From Chloracidobacterium validum (lineage in GTDB: Bacteria; Acidobacteriota; Blastocatellia; Chloracidobacteriales; Chloracidobacteriaceae): DNA of 64,000 nucleotides. The position numbers were made by a program, and so were the translations under genes. Of the stretch, positions 37,498 through 52,468 are shown one piece after another. The DNA lies in the NCBI RefSeq assembly GCF_018304825.1, contig NZ_CP072648.1, forward strand, positions 2,153,501 to 2,217,500. The letters run 5' to 3'. The notes under the pieces were generated by a model. It saw only the letters and a program-made list of their open reading frames with translations. It was not told where the DNA came from and made no database searches. Numbering within the stretch: position 1 is the stretch's first letter; each line of letters begins with the position of its first letter.

Positions 37498-39459
37498 ATG
37501 ACCGAAGCCCGTAGCTCATTTCGTCACGATGGGTTGGATTGGCAAAGCCTGTCCCCCCGTTCCTTGGCCCTGGTTTTGGCGGGGATTGCCGTCCTGGTGT
37601 ATGCCAATACGCTGGGCCATGACTTTGCCTACGACGATTGGTTGGTCATCGTGGATAACCCAGGTGTTCGGCTCGCTGATTGGCGAGCGCTCTGGTTGCG
37701 TGGTTACTGGGGGCATGTCACCGGCGGCGGCGGCAACTATCGCCCGCTGACCGTAACGACCTTTGCCGTAGAATACTGGCTTTGGGGAGCGCGTCCGGCC
37801 GGATACCACCTAACCAATGTGCTCCTCCACGCCGCCAACGTCATGTGGCTCTTTGCGCTGCTCCGGCGTTATCGGGTTCCAGTTGGTGTTGCGGCCTTGG
37901 CGGCACTCATCTTTGCCGTACATCCAGTGCATACTGAAGCCGTGGCGAATGTCGCCGGACGCTCGGAACTGCTCGGCATGGTTTTTGGCGGGCTGATGTG
38001 GTGGGCATGGCTAGAGGGGCGAATCGGTGGCGTCCCCGGTTGGTTCTGGCGCGGTGGCGCGGCGCTCGCCTATTTGGCGGCTGTCCTTTCAAAAGAAAAT
38101 ATGATTGTGCTTCCGGCGGCGCTGTTCGTGGCTGAGTGGTTGGTCGGGCGTCATCAAACCCAGGCACAACCAAGTGCGCGTTGGTCGTGGCTTGGATGGA
38201 ACTGGCTCCGCCGGGATGGGTGGACATTCGGCGTCTTTTTGTTGGCGCTCGGTCCGTACTTTGGGTTGCGCGCGTTGGCTGGTGAGGGCGTGACGCAGGC
38301 GGTCGCGGTTGGGCATGTTCCACTGGCTGGTTGGACGCTCTGGGAACGCTTGGTCATCATGCTGGGCGTCGGGTTGACATGGTACCGGCTCGTTCTGGTC
38401 GGCTACCCGCTGCAAGTATTTTACAGTGTTCGAGAGTTTGAGCTTACACCAACGCCGCACTGGCGTGTCGTCATCGGAGCGATTATCACGGCCGGGTTGA
38501 TTGGTTTAGCCATGGCTTGTTTTCAGCGCGCACCACTTGTCACGTTTGCCGTGGCGTTCTGGTTCATCACCTTGGCGGTGACGAGCAACGTCTTGCTTTC
38601 GATAGGAGCGCTGCTTGCCGAGCGGTGGCTGTACCTACCTTCAGTCGCGGCAGCATTGCTCTTGGCGGCAGGTGGCGTTCAGGGGTTGCGACGTGGCGGC
38701 CCGGTGCGCGCAACTGCGCTAGCCGGGATCACGGGTCTGCTTGTCTTCTACAGTGTGATCGCGGTGCAGCGAAATCGTGACTGGCAAAACAATGTCACCA
38801 TTTTTGAAAGCCTGATTGCCACCGCCCCACAAAATCCATCTGGTTACATGATGCTCGGGCAGGAGCTGATGCTCACCGACCCGCAGCGCGCGCGGGCGTT
38901 ACAGGAAGCCGCGCTAAGGATTGACCCAGAACTTTTACCCCCGCAGGGAAACCTAGCGGAGCTTGATTTACGCGCCGGTAACCCCACTGCCGCGCGCGAC
39001 CGTTTTGCACGGTTATTGGCTCAAGAACCGGCTCATCTCCCCACGCCGTCGGGTGAGTGGGCTGACTGGCACGCTTTGTACGCTAAGTCGCTCGCGCTGA
39101 CCGGAGACCTGCCGGCGGCAATGGAACAAGCGCAAATTGCATTACGCCAATCCCCGCACTCATTGATCGTTCTCTTTGAAACCAGCCAGGTGTTTCTGCA
39201 AGCGGGTCAAGTTGAGGCGGCGCTGGCTGGGTTTCGACAGCTCACGGTCCACGACCGAGAGCAGGGGCGCGCCTACGGCAACCTAGCAACGGTACTTATC
39301 GAACTCGAACGCTATGCCGAAGCTGAAGATGTTCTCCTGAAAGGACTTCAGCTCGTTCCCGGGGCTGAATCGCTGCAAACCCGATTGGATTTTGTTCGCC
39401 AGAAGCAGGCAGCGGCTACGCCGTCTGCCGGGCGTTCATCGTCCGGTGTATCACCGTGA
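37498..39459 (+). CDS. TMTC-like GT-C membrane protein with TPR repeats (1)
   Basis: A 653-residue polytopic membrane protein. About ten TM helices (30-425) are followed by a TPR region (about 435-640: NPSGYMMLGQELMLTDPQRARALQEAALRI and repeats). Signature segments are VYANTLGHDFAYDDW (acidic pair in the first loop), YRPLTVTTFAVEYWLWG, HLTNVLLHAANV, VHPVHTEAVANVAGRSELLG and SKENMIVLPAALF. These are shared with TMTC/Pmt-type GT-C glycosyltransferases that use polyprenyl-linked sugars. Bacterial substrates are unknown. Stop and the start of its paralogue overlap by four bases. Confidence 0.8.
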   Translation: MTEARSSFRHDGLDWQSLSPRSLALVLAGIAVLVYANTLGHDFAYDDWLVIVDNPGVRLADWRALWLRGYWGHVTGGGGNYRPLTVTTFAVEYWLWGARPAGYHLTNVLLHAANVMWLFALLRRYRVPVGVAALAALIFAVHPVHTEAVANVAGRSELLGMVFGGLMWWAWLEGRIGGVPGWFWRGGAALAYLAAVLSKENMIVLPAALFVAEWLVGRHQTQAQPSARWSWLGWNWLRRDGWTFGVFLLALGPYFGLRALAGEGVTQAVAVGHVPLAGWTLWERLVIMLGVGLTWYRLVLVGYPLQVFYSVREFELTPTPHWRVVIGAIITAGLIGLAMACFQRAPLVTFAVAFWFITLAVTSNVLLSIGALLAERWLYLPSVAAALLLAAGGVQGLRRGGPVRATALAGITGLLVFYSVIAVQRNRDWQNNVTIFESLIATAPQNPSGYMMLGQELMLTDPQRARALQEAALRIDPELLPPQGNLAELDLRAGNPTAARDRFARLLAQEPAHLPTPSGEWADWHALYAKSLALTGDLPAAMEQAQIALRQSPHSLIVLFETSQVFLQAGQVEAALAGFRQLTVHDREQGRAYGNLATVLIELERYAEAEDVLLKGLQLVPGAESLQTRLDFVRQKQAAATPSAGRSSSGVSP

Positions 39460-41411
39460 GCAGGACCTACTCACCACGTCAAATCGCCTTGGGAGTCATT
39501 GCGTTAGCGATTTTGGTGTACGCCAATACGCTAGCAAATGGCTTTGTGTACGACGACATCAGCATTGTGCAGTCCAATCCCTACATCACGGACTGGCGGC
39601 GTATCCCATGGCTTTTCACCAAAGGCTACTGGAGCCATAAAGCCGGCGGCGGCGGCAACTATCGCCCGCTGGCTGTGGTCACCTTTGCGCTGGAGTACGC
39701 GGTCTGGGGTATCGCTCCAATGGGGTATCACCTGACCAACATCTTGCTCCATGCGGCGAATGTAGGGATGGTCTTTCACGTGCTGCGGCTCTACCGTGCT
39801 TCTCTAGGGGTGGCCGGCGTATCGGCCCTGGTCTTTGCCGTGCATCCCGTTCATACCGACGCGGTGGCAAGCGTTGTCGGGCGTGGGGAACTGTTGGGGA
39901 TGTTTTTTGGGGGGCTTATGTGGTGGGCGTGGGTCAACGCCCGTCAAGCGGGCAGGCGATCGCGTGATCGAGCACAGCCTAAGCTCAGAGGGGTATGGCG
40001 TTGGCGCGGCGCAGCCGCGCTTGCTTACCTGGCGGCGCTGCTCTCGAAAGAGAACATGATTACCTTGCCAGCGGCCCTGTGGTTGGCGGAAGTTCTCCAT
40101 GCGCGCCGAGCCTGCTTGGCACATGGGATGTGGACAACACGTTTGAGCTGCCTGTGGCACCTGACACGCCCTTTTTGGGTCTTGGCCGTTCCGCTGGTTC
40201 CGTACTTTTGGTTGCGCTCCCTTGCTGGTGAAGGCGTCTCACAAGTGGCCGGGGTGGGGGCGGTGCCGCTGGCCGGTTACACGCTCTGGCAGCGCGCCGT
40301 CATCATGCTCGAGTCTGGGTTGACGTGGTACCGGCTCCTGTTCGTCGGGTATCCCCTGCGTCCGCACTATGATGGACTAAATGTCACGGTGACGCTGGAT
40401 TGGACGTGGGGCAAGCTGGCTGGTTTACTTCTCAACGGCGGGCTGGTCGTTGCTCTGTGGTTGACTTGGCGGCGCGCGCCACTCGTTGCCTTTGCCATCG
40501 GTTTTTGGTTTATCACGCTTGCCATTGTGAGCAACGTACCCATCCCGCTCGGCGCCTTGTTTGGCGAGCGCTGGCTGTATGTGCCATCGGCAGGCTATGC
40601 CGTGGCCTTCGGCTATGGCGTCTGGCTAGCTTGGGGCAAGGCCGGGCAAGGGAGATGGGTGGCTTCGGCTTGGCAGCTACGCCCTGAGACCATCCAGTTG
40701 TGTCTGCTCCTGATGGCAGGCTGCACGATAGGAAGCTATGTGTACCGCACGACGCACCGAAATCTCGACTGGCGGGATAACTACACCCTGTTTTCCCGAT
40801 TTATTGAAACCGACCCACAGCACCCAACTGGTTATGTCAATATCGGCGACGTGATAATGCGCTCCCAACCCGAGCAAGCGCGGGTCTTTTATGAAAAGGC
40901 GCTCGAACTCGAACCGCGCCAGGCCGTGGCCGGCCTTACGCTGGCAGCGATTGACATCGGAGCCGGAGCTTTTGAACCAGCACGGAAACGCCTGGAACGG
41001 ATGCTTACCAAGGAGCCACCTGATTTACCGCTCCCGTCCAATCACTGGAGCCTCACGCACGCACTCTATGCTCAGTCCCTGGCTGCGCTGGGTGAACGCG
41101 AGCGGGGGCGGCAAGAAGCCCAAACGGCCCTGCGTTACGCGCCGGACGCCCCACAAGCGCTACTCACGGCAGGAGAGGCTTTTGTCTCGGTTGGCGAGCG
41201 TTCCACGGCAATCGAAGTCTATCGGCGCTTGGTAAGCCTGTTGCCGCATGCGGGCGGCCCACGCGCGCGACTCGGTGTCTTGCTGCTCGAAGCCGGCGAT
41301 GCCGCCGCCGCCGAACGGGAGCTAACCATTGCCGCACAACAGTTGCCCGATTCGCCACTGGTCAAAGATTGGCTTGAGCAAGCGCGGCGACAGGCTGCTA
41401 TTCAGCCGTAA
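39456..41411 (+). CDS. TMTC-like GT-C membrane protein with TPR repeats (2)
   Basis: A 651-residue tandem paralogue of the preceding gene with the same landmarks: VYANTLANGFVYDDI, YRPLAVVTFALEYAVWG, HLTNILLHAANVG, VHPVHTDAVASVVGRGELLG and SKENMITLPAALW. It has a C-terminal TPR region (about 440-645). The start is a GTG at 39456 overlapping the upstream TGA, so translation is coupled. The pair probably arose by local duplication and may act as a heterodimer or have split substrate roles. The Arg/Lys-rich loop after the seventh motif differs in length between the two. Confidence 0.8.
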   Translation: MSRTYSPRQIALGVIALAILVYANTLANGFVYDDISIVQSNPYITDWRRIPWLFTKGYWSHKAGGGGNYRPLAVVTFALEYAVWGIAPMGYHLTNILLHAANVGMVFHVLRLYRASLGVAGVSALVFAVHPVHTDAVASVVGRGELLGMFFGGLMWWAWVNARQAGRRSRDRAQPKLRGVWRWRGAAALAYLAALLSKENMITLPAALWLAEVLHARRACLAHGMWTTRLSCLWHLTRPFWVLAVPLVPYFWLRSLAGEGVSQVAGVGAVPLAGYTLWQRAVIMLESGLTWYRLLFVGYPLRPHYDGLNVTVTLDWTWGKLAGLLLNGGLVVALWLTWRRAPLVAFAIGFWFITLAIVSNVPIPLGALFGERWLYVPSAGYAVAFGYGVWLAWGKAGQGRWVASAWQLRPETIQLCLLLMAGCTIGSYVYRTTHRNLDWRDNYTLFSRFIETDPQHPTGYVNIGDVIMRSQPEQARVFYEKALELEPRQAVAGLTLAAIDIGAGAFEPARKRLERMLTKEPPDLPLPSNHWSLTHALYAQSLAALGERERGRQEAQTALRYAPDAPQALLTAGEAFVSVGERSTAIEVYRRLVSLLPHAGGPRARLGVLLLEAGDAAAAERELTIAAQQLPDSPLVKDWLEQARRQAAIQP

Positions 41412-41573: not shown

Positions 41574-41604
41574 TTTATAACGGTTACAGGGGCTGTTCTG
41601 TCAA
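41574..41604 (-). promoter_or_regulatory. Probable promoter of tRNA-fMet
   Basis: Minus strand: -35 TTGACA (41599-41604, inside the aroK 3' end) and -10 TATAAA (41574-41579). The boxes are good but the spacer is 19 bases, longer than ideal, so the call is tentative. Confidence 0.45.
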
Positions 41605-42177
41605 GTCATTTAAGTTATTTCGTACATTATTTTGCGATCCCATCCACAGGGCTAGCGCGTGGAGGATGGCCTCCACGGCTTCACCCGGCGGTGATGCCCC
41701 GACAAGCACGCCAATGTCCGCTTGGGCGTAAGCGGCCCGGCGGCTTTCGTAGAGCTTTTGAGCATCAGCGAGCGACTTCCAAAGTGGACGGCTGCCGTCT
41801 CCAGCGATCCGCGTCGCCAGCACTTCAAAGGGCACATCGAGCCAGATGCTACAGCCAATCCGCCGGATGTCAGCGCGGTTCTCAGCTACCGTGAAGGTTC
41901 CGCCCCCCAGCGCCACGATCTGCCATCGGGTTGGGTCTTGGGCAAGTTCGGCGCACACCTGACGGAGGACCGCCTGCTCAACTTGGCGGAACCCAGCTTC
42001 GCCTTCCTGCTGAAAGAGTTCAGGGATGGCACGTCCCGTGGACTGTGTGATGCGCTCGTCAAGGTCAATGAAGCAACCACCAAGGCGCTTGGCAAGGCGT
42101 TGCCCGATGGTTGTCTTACCGCAACCCATGAACCCAACGAGAAAGACGATGCCACTTGTGTTGAGCGCGGTGCGCAT
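41584..42177 (-). CDS. aroK: Shikimate kinase
   Basis: A 197-residue cytoplasmic kinase that phosphorylates shikimate in aromatic amino-acid synthesis. It has Walker A GFMGCGKTT (15-23), the DLDERI shikimate-binding segment, ALGGGTF, and the lid arginine in RPLW. The length includes a short C-terminal extension (NNVRNNLNDLTEQPL) of unknown use. It is divergent from the FHA-like protease gene across a 324-base gap. Confidence 0.94.
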   Translation of the reverse strand: MRTALNTSGIVFLVGFMGCGKTTIGQRLAKRLGGCFIDLDERITQSTGRAIPELFQQEGEAGFRQVEQAVLRQVCAELAQDPTRWQIVALGGGTFTVAENRADIRRIGCSIWLDVPFEVLATRIAGDGSRPLWKSLADAQKLYESRRAAYAQADIGVLVGASPPGEAVEAILHALALWMGSQNNVRNNLNDLTEQPL

Positions 42178-42501: not shown

Positions 42502-44094
42502 ATGGCGGTGGGCATGAGCAACACGGTGTCCAATCTGCTTGTGGTGTCGCTGACTGGGACCGGACAGGAACGTTCCTTTGTCTTTGACAAGGAAGCCGTC
42601 ACCATTGGGGCTGGGGCTGGCTGCGACGTCGTGCTGGACCTGCCAGGAGCGGCGGTGCCGGGTGCGGTCGCGGCCATCCATCGTCGAGCGCAGCGGTTGG
42701 AGCTGTTCGTCCATGATGCTGATCACTACGCTTTCCGGGTCAATGACGAACTTCATACACCGGCTGATGGAACACCTATTGCGCTTGCCAATGGTGATGT
42801 GGTGGCCGTCGAGCCGCGGAACGTGGACGGGAGTGGCGAACCAGCGAAAGTGTTGGTGCAAGTCGTTGCCAAGCCATCAGCAAGTTCGCTACCGCCGGAA
42901 GGCCTGATGCAGTTCCCGGAGGTGGACGCTGGCGGGCAACTCCATCCAAGAACGGCAACGCGCTTTCTTCGGGAACTCGTCTTTGCCCTGTATGCCGAGA
43001 TGCCGACCTGGGTCCGCGCCGTGGCCCTGCTCCTGACCGTGCTCATTCCCATTTCCGTCATGTCGGCCACGGTGATCGTGTTCGTGTTTCTCTGGAATTA
43101 CGCCAAGCTCACCGAGGACTTGCGCAGCAAAAACCGCAATTCAGGTATTCAAATTGATGCGCTTCTAGAGGAAAACGAAAAACTCAAGAACCGGCTCAAG
43201 GACTACGAGGAAGCCATCAACTTCGCGCCGAAGATTGCGACGAACTATCGGGGCGGGGTCTGCCTCATTGTCGGGTCGTACAGTTATCGGGATGCTCAAC
43301 AACGCCCGCTGCGGTATCTGGACCATAGCTTTGACGACAGCCGGGCGCTTTCTGCCGATGGCAAGCTCAATGTGAGCTTTGAAGGCACCGGCAATGAATT
43401 TATTGAGGAGTTTAGCGGTACGGGATTTGTCGTCGCCGATGGGGTCATTCTGACCAACCGGCATATCGCGCAGCCGTGGTGGACCGATCCCACGGATAAG
43501 CTGATTACGCAGCTCGGCGGCAAACCTTATGTCAAGGAAATTCAAGCCTACTTCCCAGAACACAAGTCACCGTTCGTTCTCAAGCCGGTCGGTTTCTCTC
43601 AGGAAAGCGATGTGGCGATGTGCACCTTCACGCCAGGCGATGCCAAAATACCCAAGCTTCCCATTGAAGGCTTTGGTGACGACGATGGGCGATCACTGCC
43701 GGATATTACCGGACAAGCCATTTTGCTCATGGGATTTCCAAACGGGGTCGAAGTGCTGGTGGCCCAGTTGACCGACGGACAACTCAAGCGTGATCTGGAG
43801 CGTCGCCTCAAAGTTTCTGAAAAAGCCATTTTGCTGGCCCAGCGCGGCGAGCTTGTCCCACTCGTGACCCAAGGCCACGTCACCCGGCTTGTAGCGGGCC
43901 GGATTGTCCACGATGCGGCCACACAGGAAGGTGGCTCCGGCAGTCCAATCTTCAACAGCGCCGGGAAAGTCATCGGTATCAACGCGCAAGTCACCGTGGA
44001 TGAAGGCGGCGGCCAAGTGCCAGGCAACAACTTGGCCGTACCCATTCGGTCGGCCTTCAAGCTTCTGCGAGAGATGGGGAAGCCGCTTGGCTAG
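42502..44094 (+). CDS. FHA-like / single-TM / trypsin-like serine protease fusion
   Basis: A 530-residue protein. Residues 10-125 resemble an FHA domain (FVFDKEAVTIGAGAGCDVVLD ... AIHRRAQRLELFVHD ... RVNDELHTPADG ... LANGDVVAV), although the usual phospho-binding Arg and Ser are not clear. A TM helix spans 171-198, then a coiled coil (202-240). The C-terminal half is a chymotrypsin-fold protease with His321 (LTNRHIAQ), Asp370 (ESDVAMCTF) and Ser479 (EGGSGSP), so it should be active. Topology predicts FHA inside and protease outside. No PDZ domain follows, unlike HtrA. Start ATG 42502; an ATG four codons on is possible. Confidence 0.75.
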   Translation: MAVGMSNTVSNLLVVSLTGTGQERSFVFDKEAVTIGAGAGCDVVLDLPGAAVPGAVAAIHRRAQRLELFVHDADHYAFRVNDELHTPADGTPIALANGDVVAVEPRNVDGSGEPAKVLVQVVAKPSASSLPPEGLMQFPEVDAGGQLHPRTATRFLRELVFALYAEMPTWVRAVALLLTVLIPISVMSATVIVFVFLWNYAKLTEDLRSKNRNSGIQIDALLEENEKLKNRLKDYEEAINFAPKIATNYRGGVCLIVGSYSYRDAQQRPLRYLDHSFDDSRALSADGKLNVSFEGTGNEFIEEFSGTGFVVADGVILTNRHIAQPWWTDPTDKLITQLGGKPYVKEIQAYFPEHKSPFVLKPVGFSQESDVAMCTFTPGDAKIPKLPIEGFGDDDGRSLPDITGQAILLMGFPNGVEVLVAQLTDGQLKRDLERRLKVSEKAILLAQRGELVPLVTQGHVTRLVAGRIVHDAATQEGGSGSPIFNSAGKVIGINAQVTVDEGGGQVPGNNLAVPIRSAFKLLREMGKPLG

Positions 44095-49459: not shown

Positions 49460-49576
49460 TCCCCTGCGCTGGTTAGCTTGCCAGTCAGGATTGCATACGA
49501 GGTGGCGGGTGTGGTCGTATAGACAATACCGGCACGGCCTTTCACGCATACCTTTAACCGCCTTTGGTTGTACGCT

Positions 49577-52468
49577 ATGGAGCGCATCGCTTCAACCACA
49601 GCTCCGCCGCCGGCCGCGTCTCGGCGAGCGGTATCGGAAGAGCTGTCACCGGTCACACCTTCGCTGGATGAAATTGAGCGTGAACTCAACGAGCGCTTGC
49701 TCAAGCTTGGTTTACCGGCGTTGGGTTCGGCTGAAGCGACAGCGGCGCGTGAAACGACTCTACTACGGACGGATGTCGGCCGGGCAACCCAAGTTCTGAA
49801 TCTGAGCGAGCTACGGACGGCGCTGCGGCAGCAAGTTCGGATTGCCGAAATCAAAGACCAAATCACAGTCGTCATCACCGACTGGCATCGTGAACAGTTT
49901 CGCACCGGCGAAATCAAAATTGCCGAGTTCGAGGTTCGGGCGGCTGACATTCTGCTGCCTTACTGCCGCGAATTCATTCCAAGCTTTCCTCAGGAGATGC
50001 GTCCGGTTGAGCTGGCGGTTGACCTCAACCTTGAAGCCATCCTTCGGGCGACGTTGCCGCGGGCCGGTGGGCGCGAGTTGACGAGCGAGGAAATTGAGAC
50101 GGCCGCAGTCCAGGTCTTGCAGGCGCTTCTGAAGCATCCGCTCATCCCCCAAGCGCACGCCGATCGGGCGGAAGTCAGCCTCCAGACAACAGTCCTCAAG
50201 GACAAAAACGGCACCGCCGTCTATTCGCCCTCGGATGCTACCTACCTCAAGCGGCTCATCGAAGAACGGAACCTGCTTGACCGGGAAGGCGAGATTGGCC
50301 TGTTGGCCATGCTGATTAGCGCGCGCAAGTGGCAAAAAATCACCGACGATACCCTGTTTGCCGCCGCCGTGGAATACACGCTCGAAGCCCTCGCCAAGCG
50401 GCGCGGCATCCCGAGTATTGTCTTGCGCAATGAAGGGCCAGATCACCCGGTGGCTTATATTCTGGGCGAGTATATTCAACACCACTTGGCTGAGTCGCTG
50501 GAAGGACAGATTGGGTTTGTTGAAGCATTTCTCAGCACAGCCGTGCAGGTGCTGGCCGAAGACGGCCCGCGCTTTGTTGAAGCCGTTCGGCAAACCTATG
50601 TGCCACGGCTTCGGCAGGTTTTCTTTGATCAGTTTCCAGAAGTCTTGCACCGCTTCTTCTATAACTTTGAACGGGAATTCTTGAGTTCTTCCCGCACGCT
50701 GCGGAGCAAGCTGTTTTTGCTCAAACGGATTGGCGACTTCTGCGAACTGGCCTTTTACTGCCATGACGCGGTGCACAAGTTTGCGACCCCAACCGGTGAC
50801 ATCTACGCCATCGAGCGGATCAACGAAGGCACGGCGCACTTTGCGCGCCGCAACGGATTGCCGCTGGCAGATGGCATGGATGTTTTCAATCAGCGCAACA
50901 CCTTGGCAGAGATCCTCATCAGTGCCATCAAGCACCGCCGTTCCCTGCCTTCGCCAGTTGGCAATACCGACGAACTACAGAGACAGTCTGAAAACTTGGC
51001 AACGAGCGACTTGCTCAACTGCCTGAACTACTTGCGACGTGCCTTCGACCACGATTATGCGCGCGCACGAGAGAATAGTTATGAGCAGTACCTTCATTGG
51101 CGCGGCCTCATTCTTGAGTGGAGCCGAACCTATGTCCGGCTCCTGACCGGGCGGACGCCCGACGATGTGGAGCAGTATCATCTGGACGGCATTGCCGCCT
51201 GGCACATTGAACAAGAAATCTCATTTACCAAAGTAAACTTCCCCTCGGTGTACCACCGCGACCAGGCTTCTGGGCTGACCGGCACGCCTACCATGCGCCA
51301 ACCACAGGACATTCTCAAGGAGTCGTTTTTGCGTTTCTGGCGGAATTTCCACGTCAGCATTCTCACGCGGGCACAGGCACGCGCTGAAGCCGAGGAGCGC
51401 ATTTTTTCGGGGGAAAAAAGTGACCGTCACGCCGCGCGGTTGTCAGTAGATGACTTAGGCAAGCGGGCTTTTTTGGCGCGCAGTGACTTGCCTTTGGCGA
51501 CCTACACCTTTGAGCGCCTGGCGCAGCACGTGACGCCACAAACCCACGATGCGACGGTGATAACGCAGTCCCTAGAAATGGTTCTGGAACTTTCGAGCCA
51601 GGCTTACACATCTGAAGAAGTCGCGGCAGCACGCAACTGTTTGCGCCGCGTGCAGCGCCGACTCGATGACCTGCTCGCGCTGAGTGAAAACGAGCGCCTT
51701 GAATATCGTTCTCGGATTCCTGCGATGATCCGCGATCTCGACCGTCGGGAGCCAATCCGGTTGGCATCCTACGTCGTGGCACTGGGCGACCTGGAAACCC
51801 CGGAACTCACGGATGAACGGGTCCTGGTGGAGTGGAAAACGCTAGAGACGACCATTCAGCGTCTCAAACAGATTGCTGCCACACTGACGATGGTGCGGTC
51901 GCGTCCGGCATTGCAGGCACTGGTGCGCACTTTCGGCGAGTGGTATGCGGCGCTCCCGGAATCTACTGATGTCGCTGAACGGCGGACCTATGCGCAACGC
52001 TGGCAAGACATCCAGGAACTGGCTCAGGTGAACATCGTGGTTTGGTGGATTCGACGACTGTTTCTGCGCATGGTTTGGATGCTCCAGTGCGTCGCCTCCG
52101 TCCCAGACTGGAAGCCACCAGAGACCTACGTGCTCGAAGACCTTTTAGGACTGGATACGCCGCCAGTTCGCCTGCGTGATTTGGAAACGGTGTTGGCAGC
52201 CTCCCCCCTGCCCAGCGTTGCGCGCTTGGCTGAACTGCTGCGGAATACGCTCATGGAACGGCTTGACCCGGCCAGCGGCGGTGGCTACTACACCAACGAT
52301 GAGCGTCGCTTGCTGGAGAGTCGGCTGCTGCGAGTCGAACAACTTGCCCGGCGTTCACCGTGGAAAGCGGCCCTGACCCGCTGGACTTATGGCGCATTCC
52401 GGGTCTGCCTCATACCGTTTCGCCGCACGGTAGCCAGTGCGCGAGCCAGCCATCCCCAACGCTCATGA
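49577..52468 (+). CDS. Large unknown protein (963 residues)
   Basis: I do not recognise a family. The protein is soluble-looking and mostly helical, with a disordered Ser/Pro/Ala N-terminus (1-30). Charged helices follow, including an IEDERELN-type start near residue 30. A conserved-looking core contains YCREFIPSFPQEMRPVELAVD, a DFCELAFYCHDAVHKFATPTGD block, and RGLILEWSRTYVRLLTGRTPDD. Near residue 825 a hydrophobic VVWWIRRLFLRMVWML stretch could touch a membrane. It follows the DUF4388 regulator by 117 bases and precedes yraN by 9. Start ATG 49577; a TTG at 49568 is possible. Length and continuous codon use support a real gene. Confidence 0.75.
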   Translation: MERIASTTAPPPAASRRAVSEELSPVTPSLDEIERELNERLLKLGLPALGSAEATAARETTLLRTDVGRATQVLNLSELRTALRQQVRIAEIKDQITVVITDWHREQFRTGEIKIAEFEVRAADILLPYCREFIPSFPQEMRPVELAVDLNLEAILRATLPRAGGRELTSEEIETAAVQVLQALLKHPLIPQAHADRAEVSLQTTVLKDKNGTAVYSPSDATYLKRLIEERNLLDREGEIGLLAMLISARKWQKITDDTLFAAAVEYTLEALAKRRGIPSIVLRNEGPDHPVAYILGEYIQHHLAESLEGQIGFVEAFLSTAVQVLAEDGPRFVEAVRQTYVPRLRQVFFDQFPEVLHRFFYNFEREFLSSSRTLRSKLFLLKRIGDFCELAFYCHDAVHKFATPTGDIYAIERINEGTAHFARRNGLPLADGMDVFNQRNTLAEILISAIKHRRSLPSPVGNTDELQRQSENLATSDLLNCLNYLRRAFDHDYARARENSYEQYLHWRGLILEWSRTYVRLLTGRTPDDVEQYHLDGIAAWHIEQEISFTKVNFPSVYHRDQASGLTGTPTMRQPQDILKESFLRFWRNFHVSILTRAQARAEAEERIFSGEKSDRHAARLSVDDLGKRAFLARSDLPLATYTFERLAQHVTPQTHDATVITQSLEMVLELSSQAYTSEEVAAARNCLRRVQRRLDDLLALSENERLEYRSRIPAMIRDLDRREPIRLASYVVALGDLETPELTDERVLVEWKTLETTIQRLKQIAATLTMVRSRPALQALVRTFGEWYAALPESTDVAERRTYAQRWQDIQELAQVNIVVWWIRRLFLRMVWMLQCVASVPDWKPPETYVLEDLLGLDTPPVRLRDLETVLAASPLPSVARLAELLRNTLMERLDPASGGGYYTNDERRLLESRLLRVEQLARRSPWKAALTRWTYGAFRVCLIPFRRTVASARASHPQRS

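Follow-up and report, generated by a model that had tools for sequence, protein, structure and literature searches.

The gene at positions 42502 to 44094 of the window (the whole 64-kb stretch of DNA that was analysed) encodes a protein of 530 amino acids, in which an FHA-fold domain devoid of phosphate-binding residues is followed by a predicted single transmembrane (TM) segment, a coiled coil and a trypsin-like protease of HtrA fold, with a conserved catalytic triad and no PDZ domain; this protein is conserved throughout its class, Blastocatellia. We hold it evenly balanced whether it acts as a single-pass, DegS-like protease, assembled through its coiled coil, whose activity on the envelope side would be set by a cytoplasmic protein partner.

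The open reading frame lies on the forward strand, starts with ATG and is free of internal stops. It is flanked by genes for a shikimate kinase (41584-42177, opposite strand) and a HAD-family hydrolase (same strand), and the host genome consists of two contigs, of 2.66 and 1.00 Mb. The full-length AF2 model, built with 43 aligned orthologues (mean pLDDT 82.3, pTM 0.59), comprises beta-sandwich strands (residues 11-123), a helix (149-166), an unbroken helix (169-252) and the protease fold (253-525). The following features were assigned:

42502..44094, + strand: whole gene for the FHA-like/TM/coiled coil/trypsin-like protease, 530 aa (ORF, Pfam, AF2 model)
42532..42870, + strand: FHA-fold domain, residues 11-123, without the phosphate-binding Arg, SRxH or NGT motif (models, Foldseek, profile comparison, alignment)
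42871..42945, + strand: linker, residues 124-148, disordered and fast-changing (pLDDT <50 at 123-148; highest dN)
42946..42999, + strand: juxtamembrane helix, residues 149-166, with A152, F155, L163 and E166 invariant in the selected 43 (AF2 model, alignment)
43006..43095, + strand: predicted single TM segment, residues ~169-198 (hydrophobicity, AF2 model)
43099..43257, + strand: coiled coil, residues 200-252, continuing the TM helix and entering the first protease strand (period 3.5, lengths, AF2 helix 169-252)
43258..44076, + strand: trypsin-like (HtrA-fold) protease, residues 253-525 (Pfam, AF2 model, fold searches)
43462..43464, + strand: codon of catalytic His321 (sequence, alignments)
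43609..43611, + strand: codon of catalytic Asp370 (sequence, alignments)
43744..43842, + strand: helical insertion (residues 415-447) that follows the GFPNG loop and precedes the TQG strand (AF2 model, homologue lengths)
43936..43938, + strand: codon of catalytic Ser479, within EGGSGSP (sequence, alignments)

Homologues were counted in two ways. The selected 43 are a chosen full-length set, and counts over 56 aligned rows are given alongside. Left out of the 43 were L001 (the window protein, entered as P0001), the near-duplicates L004 and L006, L044-L047 and L049, whose N-termini diverge, L048 and L051, which have no FHA-like part, and L053-L056, which are short, lie at a contig edge or are dead copies.

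An FHA fold without its phosphate-binding residues

When the window protein alone was submitted to Pfam, neither FHA (PF00498) nor PF16697 appeared among the 9 families at E<=1. Fold searches with the whole model returned the protease alone among the matches listed, and the N-terminus was therefore modelled and searched apart. Residues 1-142 modelled alone took the same fold as in the full model (mean pLDDT 75.7), and a Foldseek search of this model against the PDB placed FHA domains on top, the best being that of Ki67 (E=5.7e-6, probability 1.00). Re-alignment of the Foldseek matches gave a tie at Z 12.8 between EmbR (100 residues, rmsd 2.7) and Ki67 (98 residues, rmsd 2.3), with CdsD (3gqs_A) at Z 11.9 and PscD (6uid) at Z 10.7. 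The comparison of profiles points the same way: hhalign matched the N-terminal profile to 14 ordinary FHA domains of the own genome with a probability of 98.8% (E=4.4e-17). Among the selected orthologues, PF00498 was detected in 11 of 43 at E<=1 (best 7.2e-8) and PF16697 (Yop-YscD_cpl) in 29 of 43 at the same lax threshold (best 7.1e-7), while three of the eight homologues tested from outside Blastocatellia exceeded the Pfam FHA cut-off of 20.7 bits (34.2, 33.1 and 28.3). Taken together, profile, predicted fold and orthologues indicate that the N-terminal FHA domain is real and that single-sequence Pfam misses it here.

In FHA domains, the Arg that follows a Gly and the SRxH and NGT residues bind phosphothreonine. 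Position 37 of our protein, directly after Gly36, was occupied by Thr, Ser, Ala, Pro, Asn or Val and never by Arg (0/43 selected orthologues), and no conserved S, R, H or N-G-T was present at the aligned SRxH and NGT positions of the same set. The framework of the domain was kept, with Gly36, Gly98 and Asp99 present in 43/43, Asp42 in 41, Cys41 in 39 and Asn81 in 34. Four of the 43 N-termini match one of three loose motif patterns elsewhere by chance and, after reading, were not scored as canonical. The ordinary FHA domains of the own genome served as a control and carried GR in 13/14, SRxH in 11/14 and an NGT-like motif in 9/14. For this control 19 stretches were fetched and 14 used; L178 was put aside because its flank contains a stop, and four more (L181, L182, L184 and L187) were left out without a test. 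The three outside-class homologues that exceed the FHA cut-off likewise lack the Arg, as judged by reading.

The preliminary description of this gene had proposed an FHA-like N-terminus lacking clear ligand residues, and called it a phosphopeptide-binding-like module. The FHA fold is borne out by structure prediction, and the lack of ligand residues was rightly noticed and is common to the orthologues; the suggested phosphopeptide binding finds no support, with Arg in 0/43 as compared to GR in 13/14 ordinary FHA domains. We have thus rejected a phosphothreonine reader as the best reading, position 37 being never Arg in 43/43 and the other motifs absent. Since the phosphate-binding residues are gone, a role in docking, by analogy with YscD/PrgH, is the better reading of the domain. 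In the accessible part of the report on PrgH, its FHA domain is described as sitting before the TM segment and as independent of phosphothreonine: mutation of the corresponding FHA residues left secretion unaffected, and deletion of the domain stopped assembly (PMC3635987).

Substitution rates suggest that the FHA part is under constraint. In within-genus comparisons, for which dS was near saturation, dN amounted to 0.12-0.15 in the FHA region, 0.21-0.33 in the linker and 0.04-0.06 in the protease, and the linker (residues 124-148) had the top dN of the four regions in 6/6 comparisons. The dN/dS ratio of the FHA region, a rough measure at such dS values, was 0.04-0.08 in five of six comparisons, one being saturated. 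The FHA part thus appears constrained yet drifting faster than the protease, and its lower identity to relatives agrees with this.

Membrane segment, coiled coil and protease

A single hydrophobic segment was found, with 19-residue windows scoring above 1.9 beginning at residues 169-181, and in the AF2 model the TM helix (~169-198) is continuous with the helix that extends up to residue 252. Hydrophobic residues of the 200-252 region recur with a period of 3.5, the power being 5.3 over 53 homologues as compared to 1.0 in shuffles, which take no account of relatedness. The length of this region is 53 residues in 33 of 56 homologues, 57 in 13, 50 in 3 and other in 7, and coiled coils tolerate length steps of 3, 4 and 7. 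In the helix preceding the TM segment, A152, F155, L163 and E166 are invariant in the selected 43.

The protease domain was recognised by Pfam as Trypsin_2 (PF13365) at residues 306-493, with 57.3 bits over a cut-off of 27.6 (E=3.9e-15). The folds nearest to the model were HhoA, DegS and HtrA1, with Z of 21.5 to 23.4 among the matches listed, and Foldseek E-values of the protease model reached down to 5.7e-12. His321, Asp370 and Ser479 are all kept in 53/56 homologues and in 43/43 of the selected full-length set. No PDZ family was present among the 9 Pfam families found at E<=1 in the window protein, and the chain ends five residues past the last protease helix (515-525 of 530). Curated HtrA/Deg models were left far from their cut-offs: TIGR02037 scored 41.7 of 416.2, DegS 21.2 of 422.95 and HhoA 26.7 of 450 bits. 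Thus, the remaining claims made from the sequence at the outset, namely a TM helix at 171-198, a coiled coil after it, an intact trypsin-like protease with the triad His321/Asp370/Ser479 and the absence of PDZ, agree with the hydrophobic windows, with the period of 3.5 across 53 homologues, with the preserved triads, and with the Pfam result and the position of the chain end, respectively.

The insertion at 415-447 forms three helices in the AF2 model, and 38-40 residues separate columns 416 and 453 in 53/56 homologues. In DegP the same place is presumably taken by the short LD loop. By analogy, the insertion may be considered a candidate regulatory element.

The orientation of the protein in the membrane is a separate problem. 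Among 60 homologues, K+R within 25 residues of the TM segment were in excess N-terminally in 28 and C-terminally in 25, with equal numbers in 7. In the window protein the counts were 3 (N) versus 4 (C) over 25 residues and 1 versus 3 over 15-residue flanks. Charge bias of this kind does not discriminate between the two orientations, and that of the window protein leans against N-in. The TM segment is preceded by 168 residues, and no signal peptide before it was seen by reading. FHA folds are usually cytoplasmic, and HtrA-type folds usually act in the envelope. From the missing signal peptide and these two analogies we infer an N-in/C-out topology. An internal signal that would act on an external protease, as proposed in the preliminary description, remains sensible to infer.

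A disulfide between Cys254 and Cys374 was considered as support for envelope location and dropped, as these two residues do not vary together: one or both are missing in 22/56 homologues, and in many of the 22 just one of them is.

Distribution and gene neighbourhood

Among genomes around the host (own included), a match was found in 58/58 at E<=0.001 and in 55/58 at E<=1e-40, the latter comprising 47/47 of the good-quality genomes; the three genomes without a match at E<=1e-40 are 73-89% complete. In a phylum sample of 247 genomes, matches at E<=1e-25 came from 36, of which 26 belong to the class and 10 do not; seven of these ten hold a homologue aligning from the FHA-like start. The search for the same architecture that had been suggested beforehand thus revealed relatives throughout the class and, in a patchy manner, elsewhere in Acidobacteriota. 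A scan of genome contigs gave 183 relatives, of which the 80 examined were all titled Acidobacteria or its subgroups, and the nearest named relatives among the matches listed were Chloracidobacterium sp. CP2_5A and uncultured Chloracidobacterium, at 86-87% identity.

The possibility of a mobile element or defence system was rejected. Only one of 72,556 plasmid records matched, over 53% of the protein and without the FHA part, and the PADLOC model RT-Protease_XI hits the protease part alone, with 31.6 bits. The plasmid is pTHAF33_a of Ruegeria sp. THAF33, in which L188:923-3319 contains a 379-residue relative with TM, coil and protease; an Hsp20 gene of the same orientation lies ~670 bases upstream of it. 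In the scans for promoters and terminators no signal exceeded chance, and no inverted repeats were found.

Relatives with TM, coil and protease and no FHA-like part were present both in the class (L048 in G028, L051 in G032) and outside it (L161, L162, L164). The FHA domain is therefore not needed for the core, which, as judged from these sequences, would be TM, coil and protease, with the FHA fold as a usual, not universal, partner. One could thus suppose that the FHA-like domain is an assembly or localisation anchor, tethering a constitutively active envelope protease to a membrane complex and carrying no signal. The loss of the domain from relatives that keep the rest would fit this supposition, as would its rate of change, roughly two to three times that of the protease, and the part of YscD/PrgH FHA domains in ring assembly, taken from the accessible part of PMC3635987. 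Against it, the rigid coil, with its steps of 3, 4 and 7, and the invariant juxtamembrane helix suit a transmitted conformation, but would also suit plain oligomerisation. We regard such an anchor as possible, if on the unlikely side.

A deviating case was found in G008, a good-quality genome of the same family and another genus, which holds only FHA-less copies without the triad. Four tandem paralogues lie at L054:154-4351 and a fifth copy elsewhere, at L055:4383-5372; each carries a hydrophobic segment near its N-terminus, lacks the FHA part and has a protease domain in which, as judged by reading, the triad is gone. Next after the array, and in its orientation, comes a kinase-like gene (L054:5463-6707), and the fifth copy is preceded by a subtilisin-like gene. 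These dead copies represent a possible pseudoprotease radiation. Together with L053, in which His and Asp are lost, they could be taken to mean that the protein is mainly a chaperone, scaffold or pseudoprotease with proteolysis as a secondary function. The triads complete in 53/56 homologues argue for catalysis in nearly all of them, and make this explanation very improbable in our opinion.

No conserved partner gene was found among the 30 most recurrent neighbour clusters of 114 loci: the best were a divergent neighbour at 41/114 and a downstream neighbour at 25/114, and, leaving aside the protease, a gene of the window occurs in just one of them, a response-regulator cluster (5 loci). The 114 in-class loci correspond to 102 distinct ones by their last 200 residues. 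Two other observations were made in the window. The adjacent, overlapping genes 37498-39459 and 39456-41411 encode multi-TM proteins that resemble each other and have TPR repeats at the C-terminus, which looks like a tandem duplication, and a 966-residue ORF with no Pfam match at E<=1 (49568-52468) lies downstream of a response regulator.

If the FHA-like domain did bind phosphothreonine through a non-standard pocket, a Ser/Thr kinase could phosphorylate a partner and in this manner control the protease. In favour of this, the own genome has 42 protein kinase matches over cut-off, and 23 FHA matches. Outside the class, kinase-like genes were recognised by motif and reading near L156, L159 and L160, the latter two coming from one genus. 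At L159:3404-7280 (G058) and L160:5479-9323 (G073), the order along one strand is a Ser/Thr kinase-like gene with several TM segments, then a small gene, then the gene for the FHA-like/TM/protease protein, and in the third outside-class genome the kinase-like gene is ~3 kb off on the opposite strand. The kinase-like gene after the G008 array (again by motif and reading) and the three of eight outside-class FHA members over the Pfam cut-off could also be counted in favour. Against this stand the missing Arg after Gly36 (43/43) and the unconserved SRxH and NGT positions, to which those three outside members, read as lacking the Arg, bring no exception. Moreover, none of the 42 kinase and 23 FHA matches lies inside the 64-kb window, and the kinase motif occurred in the flanks of 1/114 in-class loci (916 kb in total), at L054 beside the dead paralogues, as compared to ~10 hits predicted from the kinase density of the own genome, in a rough cross-genome comparison with a strict motif. 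In the family and class of the G058/G073 genus no more kinase-adjacent cases were found, and the protease is present in 2/4 and 4/9 genomes, respectively. The check for nearby Ser/Thr kinases, advised in the preliminary description, thus showed no enrichment in the class, and the evidence (1/114 in class, few cases outside) is too weak for a kinase partnership in the window's own group. We consider a phosphothreonine switch improbable.

Proposed mechanism and known systems

Our favoured model is that of a type II (N-in, C-out) single-pass membrane protease. The coiled coil continuing the TM helix would hold two or more chains together and lead directly to an HtrA/DegS-like trypsin fold in the envelope, entering it at its first strand. 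On the other side, the cytoplasmic FHA fold, without phosphate-binding residues, would dock a protein partner rather than phosphothreonine. Such docking may change how the chains assemble, or shift the juxtamembrane helix, TM and coiled coil in register, and this change would switch or position the protease, so that the protein would resemble a DegS turned round, with the regulatory input inside in place of the missing PDZ. In favour of the model as a whole are the FHA fold and homology, the loss of Arg, the triad kept in 53/56 homologues and the HtrA-type nearest folds, the period of 3.5 and the coil lengths differing by steps of 3, 4 and 7, the invariant juxtamembrane residues before the TM segment, the constraint on the FHA region, the matches in 55/58 genomes and the PrgH precedent. 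The charge-neutral topology signal, the FHA-less relatives, the lack of a conserved partner gene and the dead copies of G008 count against the model. The FHA domain may signal, or may act as an anchor alone. One may also envisage an inside-out signalling protease, a one-protein transmembrane switch, in which FHA docking, constitutive or regulated, sends a conformational signal through the TM segment and rigid coil to the envelope HtrA-type protease, the 415-447 insertion replaces PDZ, and the whole belongs to the core envelope machinery of Blastocatellia; in this complete form we find the scheme unlikely.

In HtrA-type envelope proteases, the usual switch is a PDZ domain acting from the envelope side. 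A conserved relative that is devoid of PDZ and bears an extra domain at the opposite, predicted cytoplasmic end offers a system for asking if, and how, a signal crosses a single TM segment. It is also a concrete target, present in 55/58 genomes around Chloracidobacterium, in a phylum with little signalling worked out.

DegS, which acts as site-1 protease in the response of E. coli to envelope stress, belongs to the HtrA family and has a single N-terminal membrane anchor. It shares its protease fold with the 530-aa protein (Z 21.5 to 22.8 among the matches listed). Our protein departs from DegS by the absence of PDZ, by the coiled coil that separates TM and protease, by the FHA-fold domain on the N-terminal side of the TM segment and by the 33-residue helical insertion 415-447, and it scored far below the NCBIfam DegS cut-off, as given above. 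MarP-type membrane serine proteases are likewise membrane-anchored and trypsin-like, the match being weak (NF033740, 20.8 bits against a cut-off of 250). MarP has several TM helices, whereas the 530-aa protein has one hydrophobic segment.

The cytoplasmic domain of YscD/PrgH/MxiG/CdsD of type III secretion likewise adopts an FHA fold, has a degenerate phosphate site and precedes a single TM segment, and in YscD/PrgH it acts in ring assembly, according to the accessible part of PMC3635987. The far side differs, consisting here of a coiled coil and a protease and not of periplasmic ring-building domains. Next to YscD/PrgH, our protein would be a second example of an FHA fold at the membrane in which the ability to read phosphate is lost.

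We found no study of the FHA/TM/coil/trypsin architecture in the open-licence literature searched. In the accessible part of a 2008 list, the Bacteroides thetaiotaomicron protein NP_811686.1 is given as FHA-FHA-Trypsin (PMC2605481). There too, FHA is N-terminal to a trypsin-family protease; compared by description alone, that protein differs in having two FHA domains and, in the accessible part of the source, no mention of a TM segment or coil (PMC2605481). The fusion of FHA with trypsin as such was therefore already known, to judge from that 2008 listing (PMC2605481), and the architecture described here varies it.
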